Assembly: GCA_032209605.1 (NCBI GenBank)
Contig: JASFXZ010000003.1
Span: 9,736,807 to 9,800,806, forward strand
DNA: 64,000 nucleotides
DNA from: Mactromeris polynyma
Lineage: Eukaryota; Mollusca; Bivalvia; Venerida; Mactridae
Reading direction: 5' to 3'
A program made the translations under genes and the position numbers. Below, piece by piece: positions 20,828-64,000 of this stretch. Under the pieces are notes generated by a model. The model searched no databases. It was not told the DNA's origin and saw nothing but the letters and a program-made list of their open reading frames with translations. The number at the start of each line of letters is the position of its first letter. Within the stretch, counting starts at the first letter, position 1.

Positions 20828-21511
20828 TTATTGCACAAAAACTTTCTTTGTCAATTTTGAGCGCCTCTTTCCTCGTCTGTCTCCTACGCAGGAACCTCGT
20901 ACTTTTCTTATCTCCGCACCGGAAGTCTGAAGAGTAGCAACTAGAGCCGAGATATATTGAATAGCCAATCGAAGTGTGGCAATTTTGGACAATTTCTGAT
21001 GCTCCCCTAGGCTATTTTTGGGTACCACTTTTCTTAAGTCGTCAAATGCGTCATTCAGCATATGCATTCGGGTCCGTTCTCTCACAGTAGCGCCTATTCG
21101 CACGAGTTCTGGTACACGACGCGAATGCTTCGTTTTATGTTTTCCAGAGTCCGAGTCTGATTCACTACTTCCGGTTCCTAAATCAGACGACATCTGCTCG
21201 TCGTCCCATTGAACCATTGTTTTACTGGCATCGTTGACTCTGTCAGTTTGATGGTTCCAGTTTCTATGGTGACCAATCATTTCATCCACGTACTGTTCAC
21301 AATAATGATACATGTATCTTTCTTGGTCGTCTGTCCATGGAAATGCGTTTCGTTCCATGTCGCAGAATTCGTTATTTGATTGAAAAGTGTATCTACTGGT
21401 ATCATCTTGACACATAGAAGTCCATTGATTTTGTTCATTTTTACCAGTAGACGTTAAATTGCTATCATAATAGTTCCCGCTTTCATAATGACACAATTCT
21501 GACTCATTCAT
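20828..21511 (-). CDS. Group A (Atonal-like) bHLH transcription factor
   Basis: Single-exon gene of 227 aa. The start is ATG at 21509-21511 in good context (ACAACCATGA); a stop codon lies in frame a few codons upstream, and the longer frame reached through TTG has no ATG. The N-terminal half (1-137) is acidic, polar and Tyr/Trp-rich with a Ser/Asp run (SSESDSDSG), a plausible activation region. The bHLH domain is at about 138-194: basic region [13 protein letters not shown] with the E-R-x-R core that reads E-box DNA, helix 1 [13 protein letters not shown], a short loop, and helix 2 [18 protein letters not shown]. The C-terminal 30 residues are Lys/Arg-rich ([12 protein letters not shown]), probably nuclear localisation. 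Family members dimerise with E proteins and act in neural, sensory or other cell-fate choices. Helix 2 resembles NeuroD, Atonal and Oligo/Beta3 proteins; GAT in place of the usual AAN before RER is unusual. I cannot name the subfamily. Confidence 0.93.
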
Positions 21512-21549
21512 GGTTGTCAGTTGTCCGTACAATTACTTCTTTGTCAAAA

Positions 21550-34800: not shown

Positions 34801-37800
34801 TTTCAGAGATATTACTACTATGTACAAAGGGGTATTGACAAGACTATGATAGCACAGCCAGATCCCACCATTATGAAAAATGTATGTGGAATGGTACCCA
34901 GCCCTTTACTGACAAACCATGATCTTGATCCTATGATACAAGATCTGTCTGAAGAAATCAACCATGACTATGAGTTCAGCATCAGAAAATCAATAGGTTA
35001 GTCTCTTTGACAATCGAGTGTTTGGTGCAACGCTATTTTACTCAGTTTGGATAAGAAAGAACCAGAGTTTATTTTGACTATTCTGGGCTGATGACCCGTA
35101 CCCTTCAAATTAGGAAATGCTGCGCGTTAAACTTAGAAATTGGGAAAAAGACTAGCTAACATTAGGAATAAAAGTAAAGGATATATTGATTAATTAATGG
35201 ACAAAATTTGCCATTTATATAAACTGCCTCTGAGAGAAAAGCTTCTAACTTTGTCAATTTTTGGCTTAATTCAACCTAATGTTTTCTTCAGATTTATTGG
35301 GAAATTTTACGTTCAATAATTTATATACTTCATCTTTTTTCAGTTGATTACATTCTGAAGGATGAGGAGGAGAAAGCCAGATTACATATAGCCACTGTAC
35401 CAAAATCATTCCCACAAAGGTATGAAACAGTACATACAGTGTTAGCTCCCTTGAATATCAGTACATACAGTGTTAGCTCCCTTGAATAACAGTACAGACA
35501 GTGTTAGCTCCCTTGAATAATAGTACAGACAGTGTTAGCTCCCTTGAATAAATGTTTTCCAGTCATTTGACATTAAAACAAGTTTTCTGAATTTGAGTAA
35601 ATATGTCGCAGTTTATACATTGTTCTTGGTATAGGTTTGACCATGATCAGTTTTGGAATTCCTTCATCTTAATGACTCTGCACAACATGAGTACTGTAGA
35701 CTTATGCACCTATCTATATTTTGCTGCAGGAGGGGGTGGGGCGGGCGGATTTACCCAGCGGAATAAAAAATCTTACTTATTTTTTTTCGCTTTTGATTAC
35801 AAGAAAAGTGGTACTTTAGATTCACTAGACTTGAAAAGTATTCTCATTTTTCTAATCTCTATTAAATAGTTTATTGCATCTTAACTTCGCTGAAATTTTC
35901 GATTTGAGCTGATTTGAATGCGATTATTAACTACGTAGTTTTATATCGATTTAGTTGGCTGTAAAAACTAAATTTTCAGTGGCCTTGTTAAAAATGTCTG
36001 TCTGTCTCCTGTGTTTAGATCTATGTTGCAATGCATTTTTTTTGATCAATTGATTTTAGACATTTTCAAGTATGTATATTATTGTCTGAACTAAGACGTA
36101 ACTTAAACTGGAGAGTCTCCAATGATTAAGTGTGTTAGACTTGGCAAGCTGCCAGGGGGGATTTTTTCGTCGGTGTTTTAAATTCGGGTGATTGGCATTT
36201 CAGTTTATTTGTTTGATTATAATTTATGCGGTATTGATATGGATTTGAGACATAATGAATGTTAAATACCCCCATTGACAATGTGTTGGGGGGTATTATG
36301 ATAAGACTTATCACCATTTTAAATTTAACTTGAAGGCTAAAGACTATGACTAACAGCAAAATTTGCCAAATAGAGTTGGGCTTTATCAGAACGAAAAATA
36401 TTTTCTTTTTTTTTGTTTTATAGAATTTCAATTTTTTTTTTACCAGACTAAATAAAATTTTACCTGACATGTATTTGCAAACTTGAGTGTATTTTGTGTA
36501 CTAAATGTAGCTTCAAGACGTCATACTTTAAATTAAATGACTTAATTATATTGGACATTAACCCAATTGTAGTCACAACTGCATTGTTCAAATGATAGAT
36601 TGTAGTACATTGTATTTAAACTTTTGCCCTCTGATGCTTTTTCATGATAAACCCAGTTGTCTACTGGGCTGTTGCTAAAATGCATTTTATTACATGTTTA
36701 TGACGAGTCGCATTTACAAAAAGAAATTGAAATGAACATAGAATCAATTTATATACATGTTATAGTATCAAAAAGATGATTTTGTCAATTAGGCCATCCT
36801 AAAAAAGTTGCTTGTTTCTTATACTCCTGCCCCTAATTTTTGGAATATGTAGGTCGATGGGTAAGATTTGAGATGTTTGTAGATCTATGTTTAGACATGA
36901 AAAATTCCTGAGCAAAAGAGCGAAAGATATTTGAGTTGAGCCAATTTCAGTGGGTAGGTCTGGATATACAGCTGTTAAAATACAATGGTAAAGGATGGGT
37001 TTTTCAAAAAGGGGTCGCTATAGCAGGACAGTAACTGTATTATCGAACTGCTGTACACTACTCAACAATTATAATCAGTCATTTAGGAGTTCAGTATACT
37101 GCTTTGCAGCATTTATTTAGACACATGTACATACTAATGATGACTTAAAAGAGTTATTACTATCATTGTTTCAACCACCATGTGTAAAGGTTACATTAGA
37201 ACAAGCCACATTGCTTGAACAACAACATCTAGTTTAGTAGGCATGAGAATTTTCCGTGAATTTGACGCTCACAAGGGCAGTTTTTGAGACAGTTTAAGCC
37301 ATCTTAAGCCATCTTAGATGCTTAAAAGCCAGGAGCTTCAGCAGCCCCCTGGACCCCTTGCCAATTTTCAGCTGATTTTGAATTCTCATGCCTGAGTTTA
37401 ATGTTACAGCTAAGTGACCGATTTAAGTGTCGAGTAGTGTTGCAGAATTTTTCTGTCTTTTGAATTTCTTTAGACATATTATCTAATTTTATGTTTCATA
37501 TTTTACTAGAATTATTCGAGCCCCAGTTCCATGGCACGAGACATTTCTACATATGAAAGAATACAACAAAAGCCACTTGTTTATTACCAACCCTATCATG
37601 CAAAAACTGCAGGATACCTGGTTTGACGAGTAAGTATAGCTCCTTACTTTTACTGTTCATGACAATCATACTGGATTGAATAGAATTTTCTCCAATGACC
37701 TTTGCTTCTCTATCCCATCGAGCACCTTCCATAAACAGACCCTGAAATACACAAAAATGTTCAATCATTAAAAAAAAATTAATGCTGTTTAAGTGGTTAA

Positions 37801-40800
37801 AGTTTGCTTGTCTACCTGTGGTAAAGTTTGTGAATTTCGCGAATGCAAAAAGTTTCAATAGCGTAAATTTCAACATTTCTTCCGAATTATATTTTTCCCA
37901 CACACTGTGAACCCCCTCCTTGGAGTCTGGCACTCCATGGAGCCACATCTAAAACACTGCATGGCTGATAATACTTGAGTCCTATCTTAATTTTTGGAGA
38001 ATTATATAAAATTAAGATATTGATAATTTTACGATGTGTTTATATTATAAACAAACTGATTTTGGCGATTCGCAAACATGACCGCACACGAAACATCTGG
38101 AATCGGCAATTCACAAACTTTTCGACATGCGATATTATCCACTTATAATATATATAGTATTAAAAGCATCATTTGAGTGGTGAATGTGAAACTTGTCTTA
38201 TCCGCTTTAAAATGACAGAGCAGATAGATTTATTTCCCTTTTACCCCTAGTTCTGGCTGTTGAAGTTTGTGTATGTTGTAATGTTGTGTGAAATTACTTT
38301 ACTTATGTGAGCAAGATTTTGTTTATTTTTGCTGTAAAAATTACAGGAGACGTTGTTGATTATTATTTGCAGGCTGTTCCTACTTTTCCTATATTTACCT
38401 ACTTTTTTACTTGCTCCCTACTTTCCTATATTTACCTACTTTTTTACTTGCTCCCTACTTTCCTATATTTACCTACTTTTTTACTTGCTCCCTACTTTCC
38501 TATATTTACCTACTTTTTTACTTGCTCCCTACTTTCCTATATTTACCTACTTTTTTACTTGCTCCCTACTTTCCTATATTTACCTAATTTTTTACTTGTT
38601 CCCTACTTTTCCTATATTTACCTACTTTTTTACTTGCTCCCTACTTTTCCTATATTTACCTACTTTTTTACTTGCTCCCTACTTTTCCTATATTTACCTA
38701 CTTTTTTACTTGCTCCCTACTTTTTCTATATTTACCTACTTTTTTACTTGCTCCCTACTTTCCTATATTTACCTACTTTTTTACTTGCTCCCTACTTTCC
38801 TATATTTACCTACTTTTTTACTTGCTCCCTACTTTCCTATATTTACCTAATTTTTTACTTGTTCCCTACTTTTCCTATATTTACCTACTTTTTTACTTGC
38901 TCCCTACTTTTCCTATATTTACCTACTTTTTTACTTGCTCCCTACTTTTCCTATATTTACCTACTTTTTTACTTGCTCCCTACTTTTTCTATATTTACCT
39001 ACTTTTTTACTTGCTCCCTACTTTTTCTATATTTACCTACTTTTTTACTTGCTCCCTACTTTTCCTATATTTACCTACTTTTTTACTTGCTCCCTACTTT
39101 TTCTTGAAAGAGCCTGCTAACCCTACTTTTGTTCAAATCTGAGGTGATTACTCAAAATATTGTTTTCACCGCATGAAGCTCGGAAGTCTAATCATGGAGA
39201 ATGTACAGTGTGGTGAAATTACCCTTTTTATTTTTGCTAAAGTAAGGAATCCTCCCTTCTAATCCTATGTATAGGCAATAACATCCCTACTTTTGACCTA
39301 CTTTTTATAAAAAGTTGAGTTGACAGTACAATTGAATGTAACATAAATAAGTTTAAACAAAGTACAAATGTGTATGTATATAATTATGTTTCAGGTTTAG
39401 TTCACTGAGATTCATCAATCTGAAGGAGCTGGAGAGAGCGGACTTGCCATTGTTGCCCTCTGAGTTTGAATCTCTCATCAGAAAACAGTGCTGGGAAGCA
39501 CATGAAGTTCTCAGAAAAAGGTCGGTATTTCTGAATTATTTCACAGATATAGTTACTAGTGGAAATTGTTTGTAAATTATCAGGTTTTGCCACGTTGAAA
39601 GCATTCTAATGTTTCCTGTATCCCGACTATACTGTGGGTAGGTCGGTTGGGAATTTATTTTTCTAAAAAAATAAACTACACTTTTTAAAGTAATATTATG
39701 CTCATTTGTTTCTTCAGTTTTTACCTAACCAAACATGAAATATATTTTGTGTATTGTTAAATATCAATAAATATGCATTATCGAAGAATACTATAATAAT
39801 GTATTCCTCAGTATGTTCAGTACTGTCTTCAGACATAAGGATGGTCTCATAGTCAAGGTTTTTTGTAATAATTTATTTTTTCAAATTTTTGTCTAGCTGG
39901 ATTCCTACATGTGCCAAAGTATTTGTTGACCATGCCGACCACTGGCAAGAACTAGTAGGACCTAATGACAATGATAGTACAGAGCTTGTACAAGAATTCT
40001 TCTCGGCCGTAGCTGCTATAATGTCCGGTCAGCTTAGAAGTATGGTGATCAACTCACTACACGACTTCCTCATCTTTTTCCAGACCCACAAGGTAATGTA
40101 CTGCTATCTACCTATCAAAACACAAGGTTAGATTTAAGGGATGAAAGCGTATTGGCTTATCAGTAAGGTAGCAGATAGAGTAGTTTTGCTTTTGCATCTC
40201 AGGGTACTTGTGTATTTTGCATTTATTAACTATAAAAAGTCCAATTATTACTAAAATTTGATTAAGTACTGTATGATATAATTTCATATTCCAATCTAAG
40301 TAAAAAATTCAAAGAAAAGAGAATTTTCTGTAATTATCTAAGTTACCATCTTAGTCATGTAACATGTAATATACTGCCTGCTGCAAGAAGTACTGTAAAA
40401 GTCTTTATTTTCGCAGGCACTTTATTTCACGAATTTCTGTTGTTTTTTTTCGCAAGTTTTTATTTTGTGAGTTCCTTCCTGAGATATTCGGACATAATAA
40501 TGAACACATATTTTGAATTTGCGAGGCTTTCAACTCATGAATTAATGTGAAAATAAAAAACATCGCAAAAATGACTTTTACAGTACATAACTTCAGTTAA
40601 ATATTTTAATGTCTTTTGTTAAAGTCCAAATGTAGTTTTTGCTACATTGAGGCCTGCCATATAAGTTTAGTCAAGAGAGCCCTCGACTGTCAATCTAGAG
40701 GAACCTGGGTGAGGCATATGTTCTCTGATAATATCAAGGGTTCAGTGCAAGACTAACTCCTATATAAATACATAGGAGTTAGGATAGTCTTTTGCGCTGA

Positions 40801-43800
40801 GCCCTCGATATATTCAAAGTCATTTATCCTTCACATCTGATTTATGTTGAGCAGATGCCAGTTGCATGTGGAAGAACAGATTAGTGTTTCTTGGTAACTC
40901 GGGGTCACTGATTAGGTCAAGTGACAGCTATACATTAGAAAAAACGACTGTTGAAGAAAGGTGTAAAACTCTTGTATTACATATTTGTTACATGACATTC
41001 CAGGATGGCAATGATTATGGTGAAAACTTTGATGATCTACAATACGTTATGGCACAGATCATGATAATCAAGCTGAGAGTGGAGGAACCTAAGATCGTGT
41101 TCGATCCTCCATTCAGGGAGATTCGAGATATCATTCTGAGATGTTTCTCTGAGATTATCGCGTCCGGCGAGGGTCTGATGAGAGTTGAGTGTACGTTATT
41201 CCCAGATATGAGGGGACAAAAACTTTTGCTGAGATCGGTGAAAATTGATGAGACCCTGGTGACCGATTATGTCGACAAATCTATGGAGATTTTCAAATTG
41301 AACACAGTTGGACCTCAGAAGTAAGTTAAAGCTTATAATTGCATTGAGGGTAACAGTTGTACATCGGGAAAATATACAAGAAATTTTGGGGCACTCTGGT
41401 TTTGGGTGTTGATAAAGAAAATTAGGTTTTCCATGTGAATTTATTGACTTCATGGAAGCAGTTTTATACACCTATTTGTTTAACTGTTGTGAGCATTTCC
41501 TCGATTAATACTTATTTGCTAAATTTGTCAACTGAAGGAAAAACGCCTGGGATTTTTTCCATTTAAGGCAAAAAGTTGTTATCAGGCTGTTCCAAATATT
41601 TATCAAATGTTTTATGGGGGTAAGGTAGTCCCATGATTTTGTGCTGTCTATAACACGATTGTGAGTTGTCTATAACACGATTGTGTGTTGTCTATAACTT
41701 TATTTTGTGCTGTCTATGACAATATTTTGTATGTTGTCTTTGACAAGATTTTTTGTTGTCTATAACACGATTGTGTGTTGTCTAAAAAACAATTTTGTGT
41801 TGTCTTTTACACAATTTTGTGTTGTCTATTACACATTTTTGTCGCCTATGAAAAGATTTTGTGTTGTCTATGACAAGAGTTTGTGTTTTGTGTTGTCTAT
41901 GACAAGATTTTGTGTTGTCTATTACTCAATTTTGTGTTGTCTATGACAAAATTTTGTGTTGACTATGACAAGATTTTGTTTTGTCTATAACCTGAATTTA
42001 TGTTGTCTATAACAATATTTTGTGTTGTCTATGACAAGATTTTGTGTTGTCTATGACAAGAGTTTGTGTTATCAACAAAATTATTTTGTGTTGTCTAAAG
42101 CACAGAGGGTTTGAAACATGTTTTATAATGTTATTTATCTTTCGTAGGTATCTAACTACATACAAAAAGTATTTGGAGCTGTTGAACAACAAAGCTGATC
42201 AAGATGTATCTGCATTTTTGAGGGAATCCCACTCCATTGCTGCCTTCAAAGCTGTAAGTTTCTGTTTATTGTCTTATAATGTAATTCCTAGCAGCCTATA
42301 TATATACAGGTTTCAAGGTGATTCCACATATTCACATAGAGATACCATTTTCATCATTTCATCTTTTAAAACCACTTTTCTATCGTTTCATCTTTTAAAC
42401 AGCTTCTGATAGCTTATAAGCTTGTCCCTTGTTTGTTTAGCGAATTCCCACTCAACTTTGCTTTCCTATGCTCCTGTAGGAAGTTGGCTAGCATTTAGAT
42501 TATAATTTTTTAAATCTCCAAAATTTGAGCTGAACACAAATAGTATCCCATCTTTAGTACAGGTTTGAAAATTTAAATGAGTCTTCATCTACTGTCCTTC
42601 TCCCTGCTTGGTTTTGCTGAGTTTGAACAAGTTTGAGTCGGAGTCAATTGGTATATAACATTGAACTTATTTCATTTGTGAATATTTTAATACATTTGCT
42701 GCCAAAAGGATACAAGACCAAATTCTAATAGTATAGACATTAGTAGGAGTGGTTCTTCACGTAGTCGCGTTGTAGTTAAAGTTGATGGTGTAAAGTCCCC
42801 GGATGAACAACATAGAATCAATGGAATGAGATCTCGAAGTCCCAGACTCAGTTTTTCTGGAAATTTGTTGACTGAGTATGATCCAATAAGTATTGCCCGT
42901 CTTAATAAACTAAGGAGTCGTAAAAACAGTGTCGCAAGTGTCACTGATGGTGTGGATAAAGCAAACGATGATAAAGCCCCAGGTTACGTGATGTTATACA
43001 GCGGACTTATGGGATTTCTTGATCCCAGCGATTTTTTAAGTGCAAGAATAGAAATTGGAGGAAAAGACAAGATTAATAAGAGTACTAATGAAGATGTGCA
43101 AGGAACAGTAAGTCAGGCTGACAAAGAAAATGGGGAAAAGGATGAGACTGAACCTTTAAATACAGAAGTAACAGAAGATTTTAAAGATGGTGATTTACAA
43201 GTGATGGCTGCATCTGACAATGAAGCTGCTAAAGCTAGAGAAAGAAGATCACCTGAAGGTAATGTTGCTGTGAATAATGGAAAATACACTACAGAAGACG
43301 ATACAGATTGTCATTATGAACAGATTGACAATGATAAGTCTGAAATGGATAAATTTGGAGGACTGAACATGGACTGGATACATGAGCAAGTGGTTTTGGA
43401 GGACATCAAACTTCATTTTCAGGAATCGGCTGAAGTAACTAAAAAGACTGTTGTGAAATATTCATTGTAATTAGGTTACTTATGTTCATATGGCTTTCAC
43501 CTCCCACATCATTGTTTGTTTATTCGTAAATAATTAATTGTTTCACTGGCATGTATAGCTGTTGTTATTGTTACAGATTGCAGCTAAGCCTGTATTAATG
43601 GTCACTTGAATCAACAGCCACCTGTCTTAAGCAGCTAATGATAATTAATCCCAATTGACAATGTTAACATTAAGTAAACCTTTATTAAACAGCCACCTGC
43701 TGTTAGTGGCTACATTTGATGTATCCCTTTACTGGCTGCTTAAGTCAGGTTTGGCTAATTACACAATGGCCTGATTGTCTCTCCCAATTTTCAATGATGA

Positions 43801-46800
43801 ATGTACATTTCAAACAACCTAATATTGATGTGAGTTTTGAAGTATTTGAAATAATTGATTGTTTGTAGTTTTTTTTGAAACTCCCAGACAAAACTACTTT
43901 TATATGAATAATGTTTGTGGTATAGAAATGTTCAGCTTTGCTGTATGTTGGATAAATGTTTTGTACTCACATGGACTGAATGGTGTAAAATGTTGTTGGA
44001 TGTACAGTGCAATATGTTCAGAGCTATGTCATTTAAAAGTTGCAAATTGTGGCTGTTGTTGAAAGGTTGTTGCTCTAGAGAGGTAACACTGGGGGTCATT
44101 TTTTGCGACATAATTATTAATATTCTTGTTGGAGAGAGGTTGTTGCTGAAGAGAGGGCCGGCTCTGAAGAGGTTGCACTGTATATATATATTATCTTGCT
44201 CCCCTTTTTTAATGCTGAAGAATTTACAATAATTTTCTATGCTACTAGAAATAATTTCTGTTTGCCTTTCCTCACAATGATTAGAGAGGAAACTTCTCTT
44301 GGGTAAAAGTTTCTATTGAGAATTTTATGGCATGTATGTAACATTTGTTGACTGTTATTCAAACAGCACACTCACTATAGAGATTCTATGGTTTAGTTGT
44401 GTTTATTTAGGTAGTTTTAACTTCTTATATTTAAGCAATAAAAACGTGTATAAAAGCAAGACTTTGCACCGCTGTGTATGAACTACTATTTATGTCAAAT
44501 TTACTTTGCTTTTCAGAAAATCATCAGTTTCCAGGACTTGAAAAATGAAATATCGTTGTTACGTATCACAGTTCCATTGAGCATGTTCTGTCTCGACTGT
44601 GTTGCTCTTAATCAGGAGCTGGCCACACGAGCTGAAAAACTTAAACAACGTCTGATCACGCACGAGATTGACGAGAATCGAGATATGAATAAAAGGTATT
44701 TTTACTGGGGCATAGGGGCTGTATTACATTTGTTTAGTCTTTGTATTCTGACCAGGCCTGATTCTGACCCATTGGCTTCCCTTAAAAAGTTTTGTTGCAG
44801 AATGCCTATTAAAAATTGTTAGTGTGTTAAGTAGGTTATTTATAATTTGGATTTTTAAATAAACTAAAAAATTTGTTTAGACATAAAACAATCTGTGAAG
44901 ATGAGCCAATCAATTTGAGTCACAGCCAAACGTCCTGTCCTCCCATGCCAATCATAAACTGCTCCGATGACATGATATAGCTTTCATATGTTGGTTGATG
45001 GTTTTACCTGTTTTATTTATTATTCAATTTATTATCTAATACAGTATATGTCGACGATACGACGAGATGGCAAACAGGGTTAGTGAGGTGCCAGACAACA
45101 CAGTCAGTCTTGTTGAAACACAGGAGTTCTTGAAACAGGTAAAAGAAACTATATTTGTATAGATAACTTTCTTTTGACATCTAAAATTGCCTCATTGACA
45201 ACATTCATACCATGATTCTCTCCCTTTATTATCCTACTTATGTTTAAATAGTTTACTCGTTACTTGCTTCTTCTCTTGGGGAAAAAGTAAGTTTTTACGA
45301 TGTATTTAAAACAATGTGATTAATTTCGTTTCCTAGCTTTAGAGAATGTTCTAAGTAGGCCAAAATTAAAAACATGTTTATTGTCTCCTTACTTACCTTT
45401 TAAAAATGCTGCGCTCCAAAGTTTGTTTGGCCTTGTCGGTAAAGTTTTTTTAGTCTTGATCAAGGGAAATATTGTTTAACAATTACTGTTAAGAAGTGTT
45501 GACTTTCAACACTATTAATTATGTTCCTACCCTACTTTCAAAGTAAGGTTGGGAGACAGAAAACCAAGAATTCTATAAATATAGCCTAAGATTTGGTTTG
45601 TGTATACAATTTACTCTTTTTAATGAATGTCATCTGATTTGTGTTTGTATTATTAAATAAGCTGATAGCGACTATGGTAAAGTTACCTATATATTGTTGA
45701 AATATTGTGATCAAATATGGTTAAAAATATGTGAATTTGACACTAAATGTTGATCACCAATGAATGCAATTTATGTTCCGTGTACGATATATTCACTATG
45801 TTAACTGTACCGAACCACTCTGTCTTCCTTTATTTTGTTATATATATCTCTCACAATTGTTAATGATCATATTTGCACCAAACATATTTAGTGTAGGACT
45901 GCACACAGGATTGTTGTAAAATAATGATTAGTTAGTTACTGCATACTTAGTCAATTTATGTTAGAAATCATTGACCATATAGCAGTTAAGTATGAGGTTA
46001 GCTAGCTGTTAAATCTATTTAAACCCCAAGTATTTTACTGACAGTTTCAAGGCTGTAAACTGCTGTGTGGTTATTATATATTTTTATGTTTTTGGATGTA
46101 TGTTAAGTTCCCCTTATGCCTATGTGCAGTTTCTTTACTAGATATGATATTCGTGCTCTATTCTCCCCCCTATCAGCCTATGATTACTGACTTTCTTGGC
46201 TTGTTCCATGATGTATTCCATCCATTCAACTGTTTTCCGACTGTTGTCCCCTTAAATTCTCCAAAGTTGTTTATGATGGTCCACCAGCCAGACCGTTCCT
46301 TGCACTCCTATTCCCATACATGTTTACCCTTGCACCTCGTCAGTCCATCATGTTTTGTAGACTGTTGTTACCCTGGGGTCTGTGTGGGGAGGCATTGTCT
46401 TACGTGTGTGATGTTCCCATTGATGTAACAACTTAAGCTCTCTTCTCTTAGAAACTGTAATATTTTGTGCAAAATTTTGAATTAAGTTTCTTAAAATAAA
46501 ACAGTGATTATGCTTATACGTGTTCTTTGCAATTTGACTTGATTTCCTTTAACATTTCGCCTTTAGTCGACATACATTTAAGAGCTGTTTGCTATCTTAT
46601 AAATCTATAATAATATTTACGACAAACCGTTGTCGCGAGGATGTCAAGGATGTTACTTCACATAAACATATCAGCCAGCATGAAATAATGATCACAGTTC
46701 GGTCTTTTCATATATTTATTATTTTCAGGACTTAATGCTTAATATAGGGTTGAATGCATTTACAAGTTTATCTGCATGTAAATAAAGAAGCAAATCATTG

Positions 46801-49800
46801 TCACCAAAATCACAATAACACATGATCGTGACAGAAGAATATGTATTATGTATGAAAGTTCTGCTCATATATTCTGTTACAGCAGATATAAAGTCCAGAT
46901 ATTATTCAATTTTAATTACCTTCACTATGCTATATTTCGGCATATAAATAGTAGACCTTTGATACCCTACAATGGCTGTCCTAAAGTTATTGGGTTAAAC
47001 AAATTAATGAAAAACAGTACAATGTATTAATAGTTTCATAACTATTGTAACTTTTGATACAAATGTTTTCAGTCCAAGGAAAAGACTGTATATGAGTTGA
47101 AAGATCAGATTGATGACCGGGCGGAAAGATTAATGTTCATTCTTGATTATGGTTTATTTCCTAGTAAGTCATGTGACTGGCGGTGTGATCATGTGATCTG
47201 TGTTATCACATGACTGTCCATGTATCTAATATTCATTGTGCTTGTTTTCAGGTGATATGAAATGTAGTAACCATTGTCTATTTATGTTAGTTTGCAGTTT
47301 CTACTCATTACTGATCTGTTGTTTTGATGTTTCTATTGTTCAGGCAAACTATGAAATTGTTTGTTTAAAAAAGAATACTAAGGTTTTGGGGCAAAACTGT
47401 GGTAACTACTTCTTACCAAAACTGTGTCACAATAGTGTTACCAAAACTGTGTCACAATAGTTTTACCAAGACTGTGTCACAATAGTCTTACCAAAACTGT
47501 GTCACAATAGTTTTACCAAAACTGTGTCACAATAGTCTTACCAAAACTGTGTTACAATAGATTTACCAAAACTGTGTCACAATATTTTACCAAAACTGTG
47601 TCACAATAGTCTTACCAAAACTGTGTTACAATAGATTTACCAAAACTGTGTCACAATAGTTTTACCAAAACTGTGTCACAATAGTCTTACCAAAACTGTG
47701 TCACAATAGTCTTACCAAAACTGTGTTACAATAGTTTTACCAAAACTGTGTCACAATAGTTTTACCAAAACTGTGTCACAATAGTCTTACCAAAACTGTG
47801 TTACAATCGTTTTACCAAAACTGTGTCACAATAGTTTTACCAAAACTGTGTCACAATAGGCTTACCAAAACTGTGTTACAATAGATTTACCAAAACTGTG
47901 TTACAATAGTTTTACCAAAACTGTGTCACAATAGTCTTACCAAAACTGTGTTACAGTAGTTTTACCAAAACTGTGTCACAATAGTCTTACCAAAACTGTG
48001 TCACAATAGTTTTACCAAGACTGTGTCACAATAGTCTTACCAAAACTGTGTCACAATAGTTTTACCAAAACTGTGTCACAATAGTCTTACCAAAACTGTG
48101 TTACAATAGATTTACCAAAACTGTGTCACAATAGTTTTACCAAAACTGTGTCACAATAGTCTTACCAAAACTGTGTTACAATAGATTTACCAAAACTGTG
48201 TCACAATAGTTTTACCAAAACTGTGTCACAATAGTCTTACCAAAACTGTGTCACAATAGTCTTACCAAAACTGTGTCACAATAGTCTTACCAAAACTGTG
48301 TTACAATAGTTTTACCAAAACTGTGTCACAATCGTTTTACCAAAACTGTGTCACAATAGTCTTACCAAAACTGTGTTACAATCATTTTACCAAAACTGTG
48401 TCACAATAGTCTTACCAAAACTGTGTTACAATAGTTTTACCAAAACTGTGTCACAGTAGTCTTACCAAAACTGTGTTACAATAGTTTTACCAAAACTGTG
48501 TCACAATAGTCTTACCAAAACTGTGTTACAATAGTTTTACCAAAACTGTGTCACAATAGTCTTACCAAAACTGTGTTACAATAGTTGTACCAAAACTGTG
48601 TCACAGTAGTCTTACCAAAACTGTGTTACAATAGTTTTACCAAAACTGTGTCACAATCGTTTTACCAAATCTGTTACAATTGTTCTGCATCAAACCTACA
48701 TTTTGTTGGCTTGTAGACAGACAATGCTTCTTTAAGGTGGGATATCTTGCTTCAGAAGTTGGCAAACCACCTTAGATGTGTTTCCTAGTCTTATATTTAA
48801 GAGAAAAACCCATCTGATGTCCAATTCATATTACAATAACACATTGAAAATAACTAAATTGCGAATGGGATGTGACTGCCATTTTTATACATCATACAGT
48901 TTCTAAAACTATCATTTGTCCCTCATAGTCACAAGAGGAAACCGCTTTCAAAATGAAAGACGAATTACTGGACGCAGCAGAAAGGATTCTGTTCCTTTTA
49001 GAGGAGGGTATATTCCCATGTAAGTAAAGGGTGACCCCGTACGAAATCACGTCCCATCCACCTTTCACGGAACCTCACCGCCGGGGAATTATAACGTTAA
49101 TATCCTATTTGTTTTCAGGCTAACAGTCACAGGTTACCATAATATTCACAATGTTTCTTGTTTTACGTGTTTTGTTACACATGTTGTTATGTATGCAATC
49201 AGACCTCGTTAATTCGACAACCTTCTATCCGAATACTCGTGCACTTCGAATTGAAATGGGCTATTCAAAACCATGCGTTTTTCAAAATTAAATTTCGGAC
49301 CCGATGAATTCGAATGAATGAGGTTCAACTGTACATTTTTATTAAAACACAATTGGTTTCAGTCATTAGCCTAATGTTTGGGAGGGGGGGGGGGGTGAAA
49401 TACTTATAATGATATATAAACTGAAAATCATTTTGAAAGTTATGATTTCTATAAAAATGCTGGTCTTATTTAGTTTTATATAAGTGTCAATGTACTTAGT
49501 ATTGCAAAATGTATACTTGGACTAGAGATTTTTGTTCAACACTTAATTCAAATAAGTATTGTAGGTTTTTACTGGTACAGCAATCAGGATCCTCCTTATG
49601 GAACATTAGTGACTTTTGTATGCAGTTATTTCATGGAGGTACATTTAGCATCAGAGTCACAGTAAAAAATAAATGTTCTATTTGAGAATGTAACTGTACA
49701 TCATATTTGGGGGTATTTCAATTTAAAAGAAATTGAAAGGATGATGAAAATGAAATCCAAAGCCACATAATAAACCTGATGGTTCTATAGTACTCTCTGA

Positions 49801-52800
49801 CTGATTGTCAGATATTGAAATTATTTTTAAAAGTGCATAACTTAGTTAAATTATTTCTGTGCTATAAATATTACCATATGTTATTCTCCAGCTTTTGTTG
49901 ATGTTTTTATCACTTGTACCAACTAAACTACATGTATTGCCATGGATATGAGAACTTGAGCTTTATCACACTTTGAGAATTTACCACCACTGACAGTACT
50001 GAATATAATGATGAAAACATGCCTCATTCAAAGTTATTTGTCTTAAGATCCAGTACTTTTTTTGTTTTTCTGACGTCAGAATTGTTTTATAAGAATATGG
50101 GATCTAGTTTTGATTGTGTCTTTATCGAATAGTGAATTTTCACTGAAGGGGACACTTGGCATACCCCCTTCTGACAACCTTGATGGGACTAATTTGCTTT
50201 TCGGTATTTCTTGAGAATGTGATTGGGCTTCAAGTTCACAATCCTTTGTTGTTGGTTTATATTAATTGTCCATTGTTGAGTTTTACTAACATCTTGAATT
50301 AACCTGGTGTTATTGTTTTAGTCACAAGATGTAACTGTGTACAAACTCAGAGACGAGATCGAAGACGCCGCGAACAGACTCATGTTTCTGTTAGATTACG
50401 CAGTATTTCCTTGTAAGTACTGGACGCAAACTGATATAGCACGCTCCTGTACACCTTTAGAAGTCTCCTCATCTGTCTCTGCTCTTTGTCTTCTTTTCCT
50501 TGCTAGAACTTTGTCTGATGCTAAGCTTCTGACAAAACACAAACATAATTCTTTACTGCTCTACACTTCAATGGGTGAACATAACACCATCTGCTTCTCT
50601 ATCTATATCCAGATACACTAGTTTGAGGCTTTCATTCCTTGACTTGTTCTTTCATCTTCTTCTCTGTAGTTCTTTCTATTAATTCATTGGTTTCTTTTCT
50701 AGTGACTACTGCTTCTTTCTACCAGATCATTAGCCTGTTTCCCAGACTTCTGTCTTGTTATTTTCAAATTCTTCTTTGATCAGCTCTCATTTATACCTCT
50801 TAGTTTTATACCTCTATAGTCTTCGGTTTTTGTAATTTTCTATTGAATGCTGCCTGTCTCTTACCTGATTATTTGCATATATTCCTGATTAAAAATCAAA
50901 GTTTCGTGTAGTCAATTGTACATCATTGTTTTCTTCATTTATATCTCTTACTCTCAGCTATACTTCTATGTTATTATCAATGCATTGCTACCAGTGTTTC
51001 CTTTTGTTATGCTTTTCTTCATTCTTTGTCCTCTTTATCTAAACTTTTTCTGAATCGAAATTTGTAGATAGATGGTCCAGATTCACTAGAAGAATGGAAT
51101 AACCCTCTTCTCATCTTCTCTTTCTTTTACAGTACATGCCATGTCCTGTTTATGTCGTGTAAATACAGTCAGACCTCGTTTTTGCGACAACCTTCTATCT
51201 GAATACTTGGTATCATCCCAAATAAATATCAGGTCCCGATATATTGTTATAGGCATGTCAAATTGAAATTGGCTATTCGAAACCATGCATTATTTGAATT
51301 AAATTTTGGACCCAATGAATTCGAATGAACTAGCTCCGACTGTATCGTGTTCCAAACATCTTTGTTTTCATGTTTCACTCTTTTACCTTCGTTTTCTCCT
51401 TTACTTCTATCAATCTTTCTGTGCTTGCTCTTCTGTTTGCTATCTTTCTATCTTCTCTTTCCTATCCTAATCTAGTGTCTTAATAATGAAGAATATGCAG
51501 AAGAACTGAGGTCGACTGCTGAGCGTATTCTATTTCTCATTGACATTACTCCATTTGCCAGTAAGTCGTCATACCATTATTGTCTTCATGTGTTGGCATT
51601 CCATTGGTTAACCTTTATGTAATTTTGTCTAGTACTTTGTTACTTGGCACGCACCTTTATCTTCACTGGAGGTCATGGTAGGACAACAGGGACAAGTCTG
51701 TGATGAATTTGGCTTTAATTATGCTCCCTATTGAAGCTGGAAAATTGAAGTTTGGTAAAGCTTTACATTAAAGTCCACTTTATTTCATTACCATGAGACT
51801 TAGCAGTATTCTTAATTGGTACACATATTTGTTTTACCTAGAAAAATATGTAAGACAAGAAGGATAACTCTTTTTAATTTGGGATAACAATTTTTTATTT
51901 GAATTACATCCCCTTTTTCATTACTGAGGCAGTGTGTAAAGCCTCCTTCTTCACACACATTTATAAATATCCCTGTTTTACATTAAAATTCCTATCAACT
52001 TGGTATGAGGTTGTGAAATTGAGCTGGGAACCAGTCTCAAAACTCAAGCTTCTGATTGGTCAGTTTGGAATTGATCAATGGTAAGGTAAACCTCAGTTTT
52101 TCTAACCTTTGACCTTGATCTGTATTGTATGGAAATACATATATAAGGGTCTAGTTGAAATAGTGTATCCTGTCTGATCCTTTGTCATCATATTGTGGTC
52201 CATAATATTTTACGGAAAAAATGGACCTATGTATGTAATTGTAAATTTATATTTCTTAATTATCTGTTGATTTCTGAAAACGAACTTTTGTTCACTGAAA
52301 TAAAATCATGACATCTTTTTTCTTTATTAACTTTTAAATTGAATAATGTTTCATGATTAAATGATTGCTAGATTTTTTTCAAGTTTTTGTGGCTTATAAG
52401 TGCAATATTGGCAAGATGGAGTTATATTAAATTTCAAACCTCCTTTGTTTAATGCAATGAACTGAAAATGAGTAAGATCTGCTATGTGTGTATACAGTAA
52501 AACCTCGATAATACGACCACCCTTGGGACCCTTGAAAACTGGTCTTAATTTTGAGGTGGTCTTTAAGTGAGGTTTTACTGTATATCCGATCTATCATATT
52601 TATATATCTTTATCTAGATGAGGATATCAAACTGAACAGCCAAGTATTCCATTGGCCCGAGAGCATAAAGGCTGTGTTTGAACTCAGCCAGAACAGAATC
52701 ATGTCTAAACGTGAACATATTGAGGAAGAGTTACGTGGTAGAACTCGTGCGTATGAAGAGAAACTCAATGATATGATGAAAGAAGTGGAATCCTACAAGA

Positions 52801-55800
52801 AGAAGGAGGTAAGGCGTTTGATGCTACATAAAACACTGGTCCAGTATTATTAGAATTGGGGAGCAGTTAATAAAAGCTATATTAATTGTGTTTATGGTTG
52901 GAAGCCTTCTGAAGCGAAAATAGACAACGTGCATAGAGATGAAGAAGTATTGAGTCAGCCTTCACAGTATCCCACTAGCCTGAAACCAAGGGCTTTTTAA
53001 CAAATTGTACTGACACATAATCGTGACTTTTTGCTTGTTATGAATTAGTTTCATATAAGTTTGGGCTAGTAAAAATGATTTTTGGCTAGTGGTTTGGCTC
53101 TGAAAAAATGAACGCAATGCCTGCTGAGTATGTGGATATTTTCACAAATTAAAGTTTGTGAATTGGCAATTTCAGTGTTTTTTCGAGCAGAAATTTTTGT
53201 GACTTGTTATTATTGAAAAAATAAATATATAAAACATACTTGTGTGAATAAGGACTAATAGACTTGTAAAATGTGCACACATTTCCAAAATCACAAATTT
53301 TACCACTTGCGCAGTGTATAGAATTATTTTCCTTTCACTCCTTAAAGTTTGTACTTGACAGGAATTTTTGTTCTTGCCAGGAAGTAAACAGACTTGTGTT
53401 ATCATCTTTTCACTTATTGTAATGATTTAATCCTATTTTTGATGCCTGAGCTTTTTAACTCAATTGCCTATTCAGTGCTGTAATTTTTGTTTCAATTTCC
53501 CTATTTTTTGCCTGTTGTATGCAGAAAATCTCTAAAAGATTGCCTACTTGCTCCAAAAATTATTAGTTCTTCAAACAAATAATTTTCGGGATTCTTAGTT
53601 TTTTTATGCCTTCTCTTTTATCTGTGATCTAAATTAAATTCTTTGAACTTTTTTTGTTTCTAGTTTATGTCTCAAGATGAGATGAAGTCCAATGTGGAAC
53701 AATTGGCTCGTCTTCAAGAAAATCTAGAAAAGGCTCGGGACGAACTCGACGGAATCAATGAAGAAGAACAACTCCTGGAATGGGAGCAAAGTTACTTCCC
53801 ACAACTGAACCAAATGTTCACACTCAAAGAACCCTATGATAAACTCTGGAACACAGCTTGGACATTCCACCAGAGACACGAGGCTTGGATGAATGGTAGA
53901 GTGTTGTTGATGACTTATGGATAGTTCCCCCATTTACAATATTTACCTCTCTTGTTCTGATTAGTCGGCCATATTGAAAGGCAATTTTCCTTAACATGTG
54001 TAGGGAATATAATGTAAACGATGATAAAATATAATCAGATATATATAAAAATAACTTATTCATTATGCTTATGTGGGCAGTTGGCTCAGTAAGTTGAAGA
54101 AAGAGCAGTTGTCACATGCAAATTCTCTTGGTATTTTCTCAATTATCACATATTTGGGAAATACATGTACTCCTATAAGTGGTTATCAGTTTTGTCTATC
54201 AAAATGGCTGATGATTAAGAACAAGGGAGGTAAATATTGTAGATTTGTGAACTATCTATTCTTGAAGAGTTATCTGTCTTTATCACAAATGATAAAGAGT
54301 TAGCTCCCTTGGTTATTTAAAGTTTACACGTAATTTATGACTGATTTGAGAATGAATTACGTTTATACGTTGCTTAAGTAATTAAGTCCCTATAAGGGAG
54401 GCATGGAGGTGGAGAGGCGGAGCCCTGAACTCCAGATCTAGAGGTCCTTGATTCGAATTGATGACGAAATTCTTCCATCGCTTGCTTAGTCATAAGTACT
54501 GGTTTGAAATCCAGGAAGCAGTCTATATGCTAGTGATTATTATAGATTGTAACAACTTGTTTCAGAACATTCCCTTAATTTAACTGCTTTCGTAACTGCT
54601 TTATATTTGAAATGAACATAATTGACTGAAATCCCAATATGCTTGAGAAAATGTATTGAATAAATGTATGTACCATATCTTTAAAATGTAACACAACAAA
54701 TTATAGTCAGTATGTCTCACAAGTAGATAATATGCATGATATAGCAAAAGTTATAAACAACTATTTTTAGAAATAATTGAATAATAAGCAAGTTAGTGTT
54801 TTTGAATGAAATATGGTAACTGCATGTTACCATGAAAAGACTAGATTTTACTAAGAATGACATGACTGACTCTTACAACAGTATGTTTAGTTATGCATGT
54901 GTATAGTAATTACCGTAGATCACTTACGTAATTTCTGTGACAAATTTTAGTATAATACAGGAATCATCCTAATTATATGAGTCTCGGGCCGTTTCTTAGC
55001 CTAAGGTTGCCTCTGGACTTTGTTGTATAAGATTTGAATCCTGCCCGTTAATTAAGAATTTGTTTGTTAAGCTTAACCCTACCTACCCATAAAAATGGCC
55101 CCCTACTCCAAAAAATATTTAAGGGTTCTTAGTGGGTAGATTTCTTCTGCAGCATATTAATAGTTTACACTAGTATGACTATAAAAAAAAAATATAAAAA
55201 AAAACCTACCCACCTACATTTGGGATTTTTGTGAGATTCATTTGTGATCTTCACAGTCCGTGAATTTGGTGTGAGTACTGGTTGGAAACTCATGCAATGG
55301 ACGTCGAGAGTGATTAATATACATTGTAGTAACTAGTTGTTTCGCAATTTATTGAAAAAAAATAAGTTTACACTGAGCTTGTTATACGAAACAATTTTGC
55401 AGTCTTTTTATAGGATATTTGATTTTTACATTTTTTTTACATGTGTACAATATCGAGCAGGTATATTTTACGTGTCGCACTAATATGTACATATTATCTT
55501 GTCTTCTGTTTTTGGATGGCTACATGTAGTTTTGGCTTCAACTTGATGCATGTATTTTTAATAATATTAATTACGCTAATTAAAACATAAGGTATAACCA
55601 AGAAATATATGTATGTATGCATGCTAGAGATGGAGATTATATTATACTAATCTAATTGAGATTAAGGAGTTTTATTAATTTATTAATCTCACAAGTAACA
55701 CTTGTAAAAATGTACAAATGTTAATTTGAATTTACCTCACAAATGAGAATTTCTTCATTTTGATTAATTAAAACAAGGTCAAACTTTGATGACTAGTGTA

Positions 55801-58800
55801 GCTACTGATGAGACAGTGAAGAACAGCCTGCCTGGTCAGGATCTACACTAGTCATTTGAAATACCTTAAGAACTACTGTTTTATGAGGCCTTTTTCTTTC
55901 ATTTGTGCAAATATAATTACAGTTTCTTTACCGTCCCGACCATCTCTAGTGCATACATACCCATAACTAAATATAGACAATTTATTTTGACTTGTCAGGT
56001 TTATTTTTAGAATGGAAAGTTCCATTTCCTTATATAGGGGTGTTTGGTTTTGTTTGTAATTTCAAGGATTGAACCGAAAACCTTGTGGTTGAAGTTCTGT
56101 GTCCTGCATATTCCACCACAGACGCTGTACAATATTAATCATTGACAAGCGATAATTTATGATGTTATGAATGGCTTAAACTCCCAGAATTTCGACTAAA
56201 ATTACCTGTTTCCAAAAATGGAATACTCCAGTCTAAGAACAAAACTGACAGGTCAAAAAAATATTGTACTACATTGTATATCTGAAATATATATACATGT
56301 GTGTAGCTAGCGTCTGCTATATAAGGGAGGTAATACGGTCAATGAGTATATCCAGTTGCTTCTGTTCCATCAATTGATGATGTGATGTACTCCAAGAGTT
56401 GTATCCCTTCCTTGCAATATTTTTAATGCTTCGTGTTTGTAGTTTATAGCTTGTTCAAAATTCATGTCCAGTTTACCTTGGAAGATTTTTTGAGAAGAAA
56501 ATAAATTCATAATTCATCAAAATTTATTTTAAATGATTTTCAAACTTTTCTGATTTCTGAAATTAGTAAACTAAAGAAAGAATGAGTGGAACCCATATAT
56601 ATTTCACTTTGATTTCTTTCAATAGAAGTTTTGCATTTTGTGTTCGATGCTGGATTCATATTGCTGTATTTTATTTTCATTTATGGTTGGTAACTAAATT
56701 TGAATTAGTAAACCATCCTGCCTTTTATTCGTGGACCGTTTTTTGTCTCTGAGAAATTTTACCTTGTTTTAGAAATGGATACTTATGGACATATGTATTT
56801 TTTGTTCATTTTCATTTGGTAAACTGGAATTAACAATTTTGAACAAGCTGTTTTTCGCTTCTTTTTAACAATGCATGTAATCTACATACTGATGAATTGT
56901 TCTTTTAAAACAGTTGTTTCATCATATTTTAATTTTCTATACATTAGGTGCGTTCACAAGCTTGAATGCCGAAGAAATCGAGAACGAAGTCGGCGACATG
57001 TGGAGAACCATGTACAAACTTACGAAAACATTCGGAGATCAACCTGGCCCGCGTCGTATCGCAGATAGTGTGAAGGGTAAAATAGACAAGTTCAAGCAAC
57101 ACTTGCCTATACTTCACACCATCTGCAACCCTGGTATCCGAGATCGTCATTGGGATGCGGTAGGTTGAGTTTTCTATATATAGTAACAATCGTGTGGGCG
57201 TGACGTTTGGGATTTTGCTATGCAAATTGGTGGTGGATAACTGCAAAAAATATTTTTCTGAATATTAATGAACGTAACTGCCTTTACTCAAAATATCATA
57301 TGCTTTATATTAACACATTCCTTCCGAGTCTAGCTTCATATTGTAATCTCCTTTCTTGCAATATTTAAATGATGTACAATATTATACGCTACATCATTCC
57401 CGCTGTTCATGTGAATTCAAAATTAAAACAAATCTTTAAATCATTTTTGGTTGAAAATAACTTTCGAACTATTCCATGGATTCCAGTCAAACTTTACACA
57501 AATGTTGAGAATGTGTGTCATGCACAAGTGTTGTGTCTGTACTTCCAAGGTCATTGTCTTTGGGAAGGCCACTTTCCTTCAAGGGCATCAATAAATTTGT
57601 CTTTTACTGGTGACATCTCTTTATTAAGACTCTTACTTCATTGTCATTGGTGTATGACATATGTACTTTGAAATTGAATCCGTTCTGTTGATTTATCGTC
57701 GCCTCTCTGCAGTTAAAAAGTTTAAAATTGTCATTCTCTATAGATAGCTTCAATGATCCATGATGATAAAATAATGTAGGCACCATAAATATACAAATAC
57801 ACACATATTCAAGACTAGGATTAATGATTTTTATTTAAAATCATAAATTTTATTTAGTTTATGTTGACTTGTATGTAATTTAGTTTTCTTTACAGGTCTT
57901 AAAGTAAGTAGGCTCTTGGCTGTGGCTTTTAATATTAAGTTTGTTGAGATAAAATGAATTTTCAAATGTAGAAAAACAAACTATATTATGAAAGTGTTGT
58001 TTACAACTATTAATGGTTCAACACCATTATCAAGCATTCTCTGTAGAATAGGTCAAATCTTTTGTAACCGAGTTTGTTTCATGCATTTTACATTCTGAGG
58101 TTGAAATGCTTTTTTGTTTATTGGTATGAAGTTTAGCGAATATAATTGTTCGATAATTTGCACTCTGATGTATGGGGAAGTTGTGAGTTGGACAAGGACA
58201 AGTTTGTACTGGTTGGTAACCCAGGAACACTGGTTAGGTCAACTTTACACCACTCGTAATATATTTAAGTATTGGTACTGTTAAACAAAAGTGTGAAACC
58301 CAAACACGGTTATTCAACTATAACTTTGGTAGCAGTACACTGTGAAGTTCTCGTATTTTGAAATGTGAGTTTGATTTTATTCTCCTAATGATTTCAGATG
58401 AGTAATATCGTAGGATTTGACTTGAAACCGCAACCAGAAACATCTCTTCATAATATGTTGGAGTATGGTCTGAACAAGCATCTACAGAAGTAAGTATTAG
58501 ATTTCAGCAGTTTGTAATTTCTGATGTAGATGAATCTGTCAGTACAGAGTCCAGTATTATACCTGTTTCTCAGACCTTAGCTGTCAAAATTTGGGTGACT
58601 TTTGAGATTTGAGAGTCAGGTGTGAGTAACAGTGCTTACTGAGTGGTTGGTATTCTTTCTGTCTATTTTCTGGAAGAATTGAGTGTGTATCTGAGATTTG
58701 AGTGTGAATCTGAAATTTGAGTGTGAATGACATTTGAGTGTGAAATAAATTTGAGTTCTCTGTCCAGAATGCAGATTGGTGAGTAATATCCAAGGATCTT

Positions 58801-61240: not shown

Positions 61241-62847
61241 GTGAGTGTGACTTCATAACGGCCTGGCAAATTGTCTGGGCATAGTTCGAAAATCATTTTG
61301 GAAAATTGATACGTAGCAATAATGGTTTTGTTCATATACCATGTATTTAGGATCATCGAATGAAATTCTCTTGATTATAAGTCCACTTCAGCCTAGGATC
61401 ATCTGCTCTTTTAACTATTTTCAGTGTTTGTTGTATTACAAGCCCCATGTTTAAGTTTACCTGACCAAAAAATATTTGATTCTGCGTATTTAGTAAAATT
61501 TCCCATTTTTTTATCCGGCCGAACAAGTTTTTACCCAACACATCGACACAGTCAGCACCAATGCAGTTTTCATGCCAAAGTTTTGCTCAGAGCAGTATTT
61601 CCTCGTACCTCAATGCGATGTTCTATATTTGTAAAAAGCAATCTTGTGAAGTTTTACATGAATTTTCACTTCCCCAAAATTGATTTACATGTCATGGGCT
61701 TTTGACCAAATGGGTTATAGTGAAGACTGAAGTATCACTTAATTAGTGACACCTCCATTTTTCAGTCCAGATACAACACATTTTTGTATGCATTAAACAG
61801 ATTCTGTAATGCCTGGTATCTCTTACATCGGACATTTTTTCACATTTCCGCTGTGCATTCATTGATATGTGCAAACATAAAATTTTATAATTTTTTATCG
61901 ATAAAAGTATTGAACAAATTTCAGACCGAAACACAGTCGCCGAATGGAGACAAAATAGACCTAGTAAATACATGTATCTTGTTGTTTGATCATTGTATAT
62001 GATGGAACGAAGCGATTATCATGTTCACAATTCTAACTCGGCTGCCACTTAAATGAACATTATTGTCAGTAGTTCGTTGTGTATAAATCTCATTGTTGTG
62101 ATGATCAAAATTAGATGTTCAAATTAAGGAACTAGGGTCAAAGGTTATAAATGTACATTTTTAGAATGAAGCTTTGTCATTGGTCAATTTTACGACTCAA
62201 CTTGGAAACAATTATCATAAATCTGAGTATTAAGAATTGACATGTAGAGGTTTCAGTGCAATATTATCGTACCCGATTCTTCGTCGGAAACTAAGTTACA
62301 ATACTTTGCGCCAAACCCTGGATATGCATTAATTAACTACAGTAGTAGTCAGCCAATGAAAACAGGTTTTAGAAAATATTGACCAATAGACATCATGCAC
62401 ACAATTATGGTATTTTTCAACTTACTTTGAATAAACTACATGTATACATTCTGTTACCATAAATAATTAATTATTCTACTGCTGTGTTTTGTCTTAGCAT
62501 CCAATATTTCAGTATTACATCTATGGTGATGATATTTTTATTCTGTTCACTTGATACTTTGTTGTTGGCATGGAGATACAGATATTTGAAATTGCATGTC
62601 ACATAATATTATCTAGATTGTCTAAACTCAAGAGTATTTGATGTTTTGGTTTGAAATGGCACAAGCATGTATTTTGCCCTTTGATATGATTACGTTCCCT
62701 TGTTGCATGAGGGACTTTCGCTGAAGGGAAACATGTCTGACTGCTTCTTTATTCATATGCAGTTTGACTAGTTTTGCTTTTTTTCCCCTTCAAAGTACAG
62801 AATTCTTTTTCGGCGCAACCGTACTTACATAGCTGTGGTATTTGCAT

Positions 62848-63111
62848 ATCAGTGTTGTGTAAACCATTCAAATGTTACGTTAACCACTAAACCAACTTCT
62901 CTTCATCCGAACAACGTTTGAAACCTTGACCCGGATTGGTTAAGGGGTCATTACCTTAAGGATATCCACTGAATTTTGTCGAATTTTCCGGAATCCATTT
63001 TTGGATCAGGAGTGACCAGCAATCGTAACATCTCAGCAATTTTTTATGTTGCACAACAAGTCTTATCCTTCAAATTGCGCCGACCACATTTTTTCAAGAT
63101 ATTTCTTGTTT
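62848..63111 (-). repeat. Dispersed repeat C, copy 2
   Basis: Inverted relative to 10552-10821, with the same landmarks in reverse order: TGTGTAAACC, ATTGGTTAAG, ATCCACTGAATTTTG, CAGCAATCGTAACATCTC, AATTGCGCCGACCACATT and CAAGATATTTCTTGTTT. No coding frame is kept. Confidence 0.85.
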
Positions 63112-63298
63112 ACTTTGAACTTCTGTTTGTCCATTCGTCTTCCCTTGATGTTTTTCAGTCAGCAGTCGTCATTGCAGTCTTTATGCATTATGCTCATTGT
63201 ATGATATAAATCGTCTTGTGTTGAGGATTTAGTGCAAAATTGTTGTATTTGTGTCGCCCAAAACTGAGTTACTCTAGTTCTATCCCGAGCCCTCTATA

Positions 63299-63360
63299 TA
63301 TTCATATGAGATACATTTATATCATTTTTATTCATATGAGATACATTTATATCATTTTTA
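63299..63360. repeat. 30-bp tandem duplication
   Basis: TTCATATGAGATACATTTAT-ATCATTTTTA occurs twice in a row with no difference, followed by a partial third copy (TGCATATGAT). Confidence 0.9.
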
Positions 63361-63824
63361 TGCATATGATTGTCATTCTTGATTTTAACACTTTCAGAAA
63401 AGTTGTACAATATATATGTTACCCTGATAGTTTTTTCTGGATGACATTTTTCACTTCCTTGGAATGTCTGAATGTCACATATCATTCTGTTAATGTCACT
63501 CATGTTCACTTGTATTAGATTTGAGTCATTTGTTTCAACATCTGTCTCTTCACCAGTCATTTATTCGTCATCGTGTCTTGATTCACATTTGCACATGAAT
63601 TGTCTCCCATTTTTGTCATGTTGTGGGTGATGATCTTCCACAGCTGTATTATATTTACTGTTTTACAATCTTGACTTGTTCCGAAAAAATTGCCTTGTTT
63701 GAATAAGTTAAGATTGTTTAGTTTTTGTAAAATACCATTTTATACATGAACTTCTTTTTTCATTGAATAAGTCTATTAATTGTTTTCTATCTTGGTATAA
63801 TTAACATTCAGCAAGTCCTATTAT

Positions 63825-63998
63825 CAGGCATGAGAATTTTCTGTGGATTCACGGAAATCCGTGGATTTGACGCTGGCAAGGGCAGTTTTTGAGACAATTT
63901 AAGCCATCTTAAATGCTTAAAAGCCACGAGCTTCAGCGGTCCCCTAGACCACATGCCGAATTTTTAGCTGATTTTGAAATTTTGCATTCTCATTCCTG
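63825..63998. mobile_element. TIR element, copy 2 of the 37237 family
   Basis: CAGGCATGAGAATTTT at the left and GCATTCTCATTCCTG at the right are inverted repeats. The interior GACGCTGGCAAGGGCAGTTT, AAGCCATCTTA and GAGCTTCAGC match copy 1 in order; this copy has an extra CACGGAAATCCGTGGA palindrome near the left end. Confidence 0.85.
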
Positions 63999-64000
63999 TA

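Follow-up and report, generated by a model that had tools for sequence, protein, structure and literature searches.

A DNAH3-type axonemal dynein heavy chain gene of the bivalve Mactromeris polynyma holds four tandem exons, 15A to 15D, which we consider likely to encode four versions of a single tail segment. Stop-free joins take only one of them, and we predict that mutually exclusive splicing of these exons gives four DNAH3 variants.

Identity of the gene and layout of the exon cluster

We assigned the gene that carries the cassettes to the DNAH3-type (inner-arm) axonemal dynein heavy chains by its nearest relatives. The top PDB matches were a bovine sperm chain, 9fqr_Xx, and human DNAH3; 9fqr_Xx is labelled malate dehydrogenase 1B, yet it is the nearest chain to this gene. 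Seventy-five heavy chains with the cassette region were found, ranging from bivalves out to vertebrates, cnidarians, rotifers and insects. By our own count 52 of these 75 bear the DNAH3 name, the remaining ones being named DNAH7, hypothetical, cut-off or nameless. The nearest proteins over a region of 267 residues were those of Mercenaria (86% identity) and Mya (85%). The Mya DNAH3-like protein P0002 was aligned by tblastn from 30689 to 123317, in coordinates extended beyond the window (the whole stretch of 64,000 nucleotides that was analysed), and the gene thus continues to about 123317. The heavy chain is complete, with 3950 of the 4050 residues of P0002 covered by 67 tblastn matches that are all in order save one weak match, and DHC_N2 matches on C223 support a full-length heavy chain. 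The nearest PDB chains, the named homologs and the coverage of the Mya protein all bear out the original prediction of a DNAH3-type gene. The parts of the gene that concern us here, with the exon numbers 13 to 17 of the first reading of the sequence, are as follows.

30689..64000, + strand: portion of the DNAH3-type heavy chain gene that falls within the window (Mya P0002 aligned by tblastn)
44517..44695, + strand: exon 13, ends in phase 2 (Mya tblastn and exon model)
45045..45138, + strand: exon 14, ends in phase 0 (Mya tblastn and exon model)
47073..47163, + strand: putative cassette A (15A), 91 nt, SKEKTVYELKDQIDDRAERLMFILDYGLFP (frame, borders, duplicate scan, segment scores)
48929..49019, + strand: putative cassette B (15B), 91 nt, SQEETAFKMKDELLDAAERILFLLEEGIFP (frame, borders, duplicate scan, segment scores)
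50322..50412, + strand: putative cassette C (15C), 91 nt, ancestral type, SQDVTVYKLRDEIEDAANRLMFLLDYAVFP (frame, borders, scans; best match of 73 of 75 proteins)
51476..51560, + strand: putative cassette D (15D), 85 nt, CLNNEEYAEELRSTAERILFLIDITPFA (frame, borders, duplicate scan, segment scores)
52618..52808, + strand: exon 16, needs one base from the cassette and begins with the two bases that complete the split codon
53664..53895, + strand: exon 17 (Mya tblastn and exon model)

The coordinates, lengths, phases and borders of the four cassettes are all as originally predicted. Each has AG/GTAAGT borders, enters in phase 0, leaves in phase 1 and is open in frame 0. The array thus has the make-up of a mutually exclusive cluster, with tandem homologous exons of like length and the same phases and splice sites, D being 6 nt shorter. 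The codon fit was positive for all four in the frame used, under a model trained on the same gene, B included. The acceptor of cassette A is weak by a crude score, which we counted against the best explanation. Pairwise DNA identity among the four is 39-64%, and D is the weakest relative, with 0.25-0.36 amino acid identity to A, B and C.

The exon model behind these analyses is a rough one. It was built for the window plus 78 kb downstream, in a genome of 793 Mb, and every exon in it is stop-free; some of its 56 non-cassette exons may be false and, according to the alignment of the Mya protein, it missed an exon at 42148-42253 and others. The model exon at 43029-43434 was rejected as a dynein exon, as it is without counterpart in the Mya protein and likely lies outside the gene. 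The queries for the search that gave the 75 proteins and for a search of mid-length models included this stretch, which is almost wholly outside the scored region. It scored 28.9 as an exon and is part of an open frame of 259 amino acids (42691-43470, + strand) with coding-like codon use, which lies between two dynein exons and is itself without a Mya counterpart.

Reading frame and duplicate scans

To the joined exons 13-14 we added each of the 16 subsets of {A, B, C, D} followed by exons 16-17, and counted stops. Only four of the 16 joins were stop-free, and these were exactly the four single-cassette choices. The other 12 (no cassette, six pairs, four triples and all four) held from 2 to 17 stops each; inclusion of A, B, C and D together restored the downstream frame but left 2 stops within. 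The frame is therefore open by single inclusion only, and the arithmetic permits one of four, just as had been predicted. In the proposed mechanism the frame would act as a final safeguard, since a transcript with no cassette, or with more than one, would run into premature stops and be lost. The choice itself would likely be made by splicing factors, the frame merely removing errors.

A search for exon duplicates was run on 60 exons, the 4 cassettes and the 56 other predicted ones, over 12 kb on both strands. A duplicate had to be flanked by AG..GT, share the phases, have a length within 18 nt, hold no stop and reach a BLOSUM62 score above 0.15 of the exon's score with itself. The top-listed matches of each cassette were the other cassettes, including trimmed or extended versions of them, and none of the 56 other predicted exons had a spliceable, similar copy of the same phase and like length within 12 kb on either strand. 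We also scored the cassettes within a set of 129 AG..GT segments without stops, 67-109 nt long and in the same phases, taken from both strands of 45139-52617 and including versions that overlap the cassettes. Scores between cassettes ran from 27 to 104, and the best segment overlapping none of them scored 8. The best matches of D among the 129 segments were A, B and C.

The array was also sought in paralogs of the same genome. Matches to DHC_N2 fall, by our own grouping, in 18 places, namely the DNAH3-type gene and 17 others. Upstream DNA of 11 of these 17 (10-20 kb each, coding strand) gave 158 predicted exons (120 + 38), none of which had a duplicate scoring above 0.2. In two paralogs close to DNAH3, L031 and L032, the helix lies within one larger predicted exon (262 and 304 nt, respectively) without introns at the cassette borders, according to the rough exon model. 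In these two related genes the claim that other DNAH proteins have a single helix here is supported.

Age, selection and the cassettes of other animals

We judge cassette C to be the ancestral form, because it is the best match among A, B and C for 73 of the 75 DNAH3-like proteins. The two exceptions are Polyplax P0071, which ties B and C, and Dreissena P0003, which is nearest to B (12 of 30). C is also more conserved than its flanks in eight of the nine proteins listed (for instance, 0.97 vs 0.85 in Mercenaria and 0.83 vs 0.69 in Pecten), the ninth being that of Dreissena; the identity of A and B to those eight proteins is 0.43-0.63. The differences among A, B and C lie mostly at third codon positions (Fisher p 0.0004-0.0006). 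By the NG86 method the B-C comparison gave a dN of 0.33 and a dS of 3.03, and for A-B and A-C the dS was beyond estimate. From the third-position bias and the nearly saturated dS, A and B are judged to be old copies still under purifying selection on their protein sequence. Cassette D is far more diverged than A and B, and what supports it is an intact frame, its borders and a residual likeness to the others. It failed the third-position test against the other cassettes (p 0.06-0.10), which we also counted against the best explanation.

Cassettes unlike C were found in two other animals. The Dreissena model P0003 ("isoform X1" according to its source) has SMDSERTTEDLRQAARRILFLVDFGRFP in the place of the cassette, 28 amino acids as in D; its flanks are 0.84 identical, but the identity of its cassette to each of A-D does not exceed 0.40. 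The Dreissena cassette scored 59 against D, 51 against C and 49 against both A and B; the margin of D over C is small, which leaves D no more than a possible ortholog. The search for mid-length models gave six, five of them with a C-type cassette (by eye) and one, the partial model P0095 of the annelid Owenia, with the non-C cassette CREKHAEILKREVDKAADTLLSIIENAHFS. A further search for fragments with an alignment of 184-aa isoforms gave 19 proteins, mostly apparently unspliced open reading frames. Among these reading frames, which come from other animals, a single C-type exon lies shortly after exon 14 in P0088 and P0089, is fused to exon 14 in P0091 and stands shortly before exon 16 in P0081, which argues that the array is not general.

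These data bear on whether all four cassettes are used. C might be the sole productive exon, with A, B and D as old copies that are rarely spliced or that yield unproductive transcripts lowering DNAH3. Such an arrangement would fit the match of C to nearly all DNAH3-like proteins, the stops in every two-cassette join and the high divergence of D. Nevertheless, A and B keep their frame, splice sites, phases and purifying pattern despite synonymous sites that are saturated or nearly so, a merely frame-breaking copy would not need a conserved protein sequence, and the Dreissena gene model carries a non-C cassette; we therefore regard a single productive exon as unlikely. Still less probable, in our judgement, is that A, B and C are functional alternatives and D a separate or decayed exon. 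The shorter length of D, its low identity to A, B and C and its failure in the third-position test would agree with decay, but its borders, phase and frame are intact, its best matches among the 129 candidates are A, B and C, and of the four it gives the top score against the 28-aa cassette of Dreissena, if by a small margin. That the assembly placed together exons from several DNAH3 copies or alleles is hardly credible, given that, across the gene, the exons around the cassettes come in the same order as in the Mya protein and that a DNA identity of 39-64% among the cassettes far exceeds allelic difference. Four alternative versions of one tail segment, taken singly, thus remain the preferred reading.

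A wider proposal, which we offer as doubtful, is that DNAH3 of spiralians holds an old tail switch, in which the choice of exon yields four heavy chains, every one of them serving a particular type of cilium or place in the axoneme. Splicing would then do what the mammalian outer arm does with separate genes, where sperm DNAH8 and DNAH17 stand for the DNAH5 and DNAH9 of epithelial cilia (PMC11779644, seen in part). The non-C cassettes of Dreissena and Owenia would be either parts of this switch or repeated inventions.

Possible splicing control, the swapped segment and known systems

UCUU/UUCU is a motif of PTB. Within the cluster, one intron stands out in its density of TTCT/TCTT.

50413..51475, + strand: C-D intron, candidate PTB-type control region (TTCT/TCTT density of 60.2 per kb)

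It is the densest of the 58 introns of at least 300 nt in the rough model, the next having 25.2 per kb, and comes second among these 58 when pyrimidine content alone is considered. Dense UCUU/UUCU beside exons, as looked for in PTB-type control, is thus found in the C-D intron, and this composition suggests a candidate PTB-type control in which a PTB-like protein bound there would weigh C against D. PTB control of the CaV1.2 exons 8a/8 is among the works in the reference list of PMC3923563, of which part was available.

We also looked for docking and selector sequences by pairing, without gaps and in one genome, the intron between exon 14 and A or that between D and exon 16 with the 300 nt on each side of every cassette, against 100 shuffles. 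Among 12 such statistics, no shuffle reached the summed pairing between the upstream flanks and the intron from D to exon 16, two others were reached by 5 and 6 shuffles, and the remaining nine by 24-95. Several repeats were noted in the introns of the cluster.

47392..48674, + strand: minisatellite of 25 nt, 51.4 copies, in the A-B intron (tandem repeat)

By eye, two stretches that resemble repeats and each other run the same way, one at 49199-49330 in the B-C intron and one at 51172-51345 in the C-D intron. The intron between D and exon 16 holds a perfect inverted repeat of 16 nt (52491-52584).

To place the cassette in the protein we used a predicted fold of the partial protein of Owenia, whose cassette is not of the C type (36 sequences, mean pLDDT 74, pTM 0.47), in which the pLDDT was 83 to 85 in the cassette stretch. 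A helix spans residues 643-679 of the model; exon 14 encodes the first 13 of these, and the cassette (656-685, aligned to C) encodes the remainder. A turn follows, and then a helix at 686-747 from exon 16. In this model the cassette is predicted to supply the last two thirds of a long helix in the tail, together with the turn that leads to the helix after it, all of this ahead of the linker. The cassettes had been described as versions of one helix; that they are related alternatives stands, while in the predicted fold the helix begins in exon 14 and the cassette adds a turn. With this model Foldseek returned 9fqr_Xx first (E 1.5e-49), and a TM-score of 0.37 with an rmsd of 22 means that the fold family was matched and the overall shape was not. 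A swapped segment at this place would leave the motor unchanged and likely tune the docking of the tail or the passage of force, because human DNAH3, which is inner arm c and carries actin and DNALI1, sits at the base of radial spoke 2 (PMC10266980, in the part seen).

The array is best read as a mutually exclusive exon cluster, a known kind of arrangement to which it adds a new case. The literature searched, seen in part and with few papers from subscription journals, yielded no description of such a cluster for an axonemal dynein heavy chain. Closest is SmDHC1 of Schistosoma mansoni, a dynein heavy chain whose equally long homologous exons are reported as mutually exclusive (PMC3228551, in part); that chain is cytoplasmic with two such exons, whereas the present one is axonemal with four. 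The muscle myosin heavy chain genes of arthropods likewise make many isoforms from one motor gene by swapping short tandem exons (PMC3228551, PMC2257972, both in part), although with several clusters tied to muscle types, against one predicted cluster in a dynein tail here. Among human mutually exclusive exons, 377 clusters (60%) hold exons not divisible by three, whose joint inclusion breaks the frame, according to the accessible part of PMC5740500. Junction reads were at hand there, whereas the present cluster is known from genomic sequence alone; in the main text of that paper, as far as available, dynein occurs in the reference list only and DNAH does not occur. Clusters of the Dscam type also take one exon of a tandem array (PMC6071210, PMC8042237, both in part), but their docking and selector pairing is not established here, where the pairs were ungapped and came from one genome.

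If the four forms are made, the diversity of cilia motors would come from splicing, beyond the many DNAH genes. Bivalves have several kinds of beating cilia as well as sperm, so the use of cassettes by cilia type is directly testable. Because the segment that is exchanged is short and sits ahead of the linker in the tail, it would provide a natural test of the role of this part of an inner-arm dynein.

Three further features were noted elsewhere in the window. Inside the gene, a tandem repeat of 38 nt with 19.2 copies (38379-39101) is largely open in three forward frames, and the minus strand at 37547-37948 contains an incomplete, inverted duplicate of the dynein gene's last-exon region, with 79% identity over 274 nt to 122816-123077 (window-extended coordinates) and a weak Dynein_C match below the cut-off. 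The minus strand also has, at 20828-21532, an open frame that matches the helix-loop-helix domain PF00010 (E 1.8e-17) and may be a bHLH gene with a single exon.
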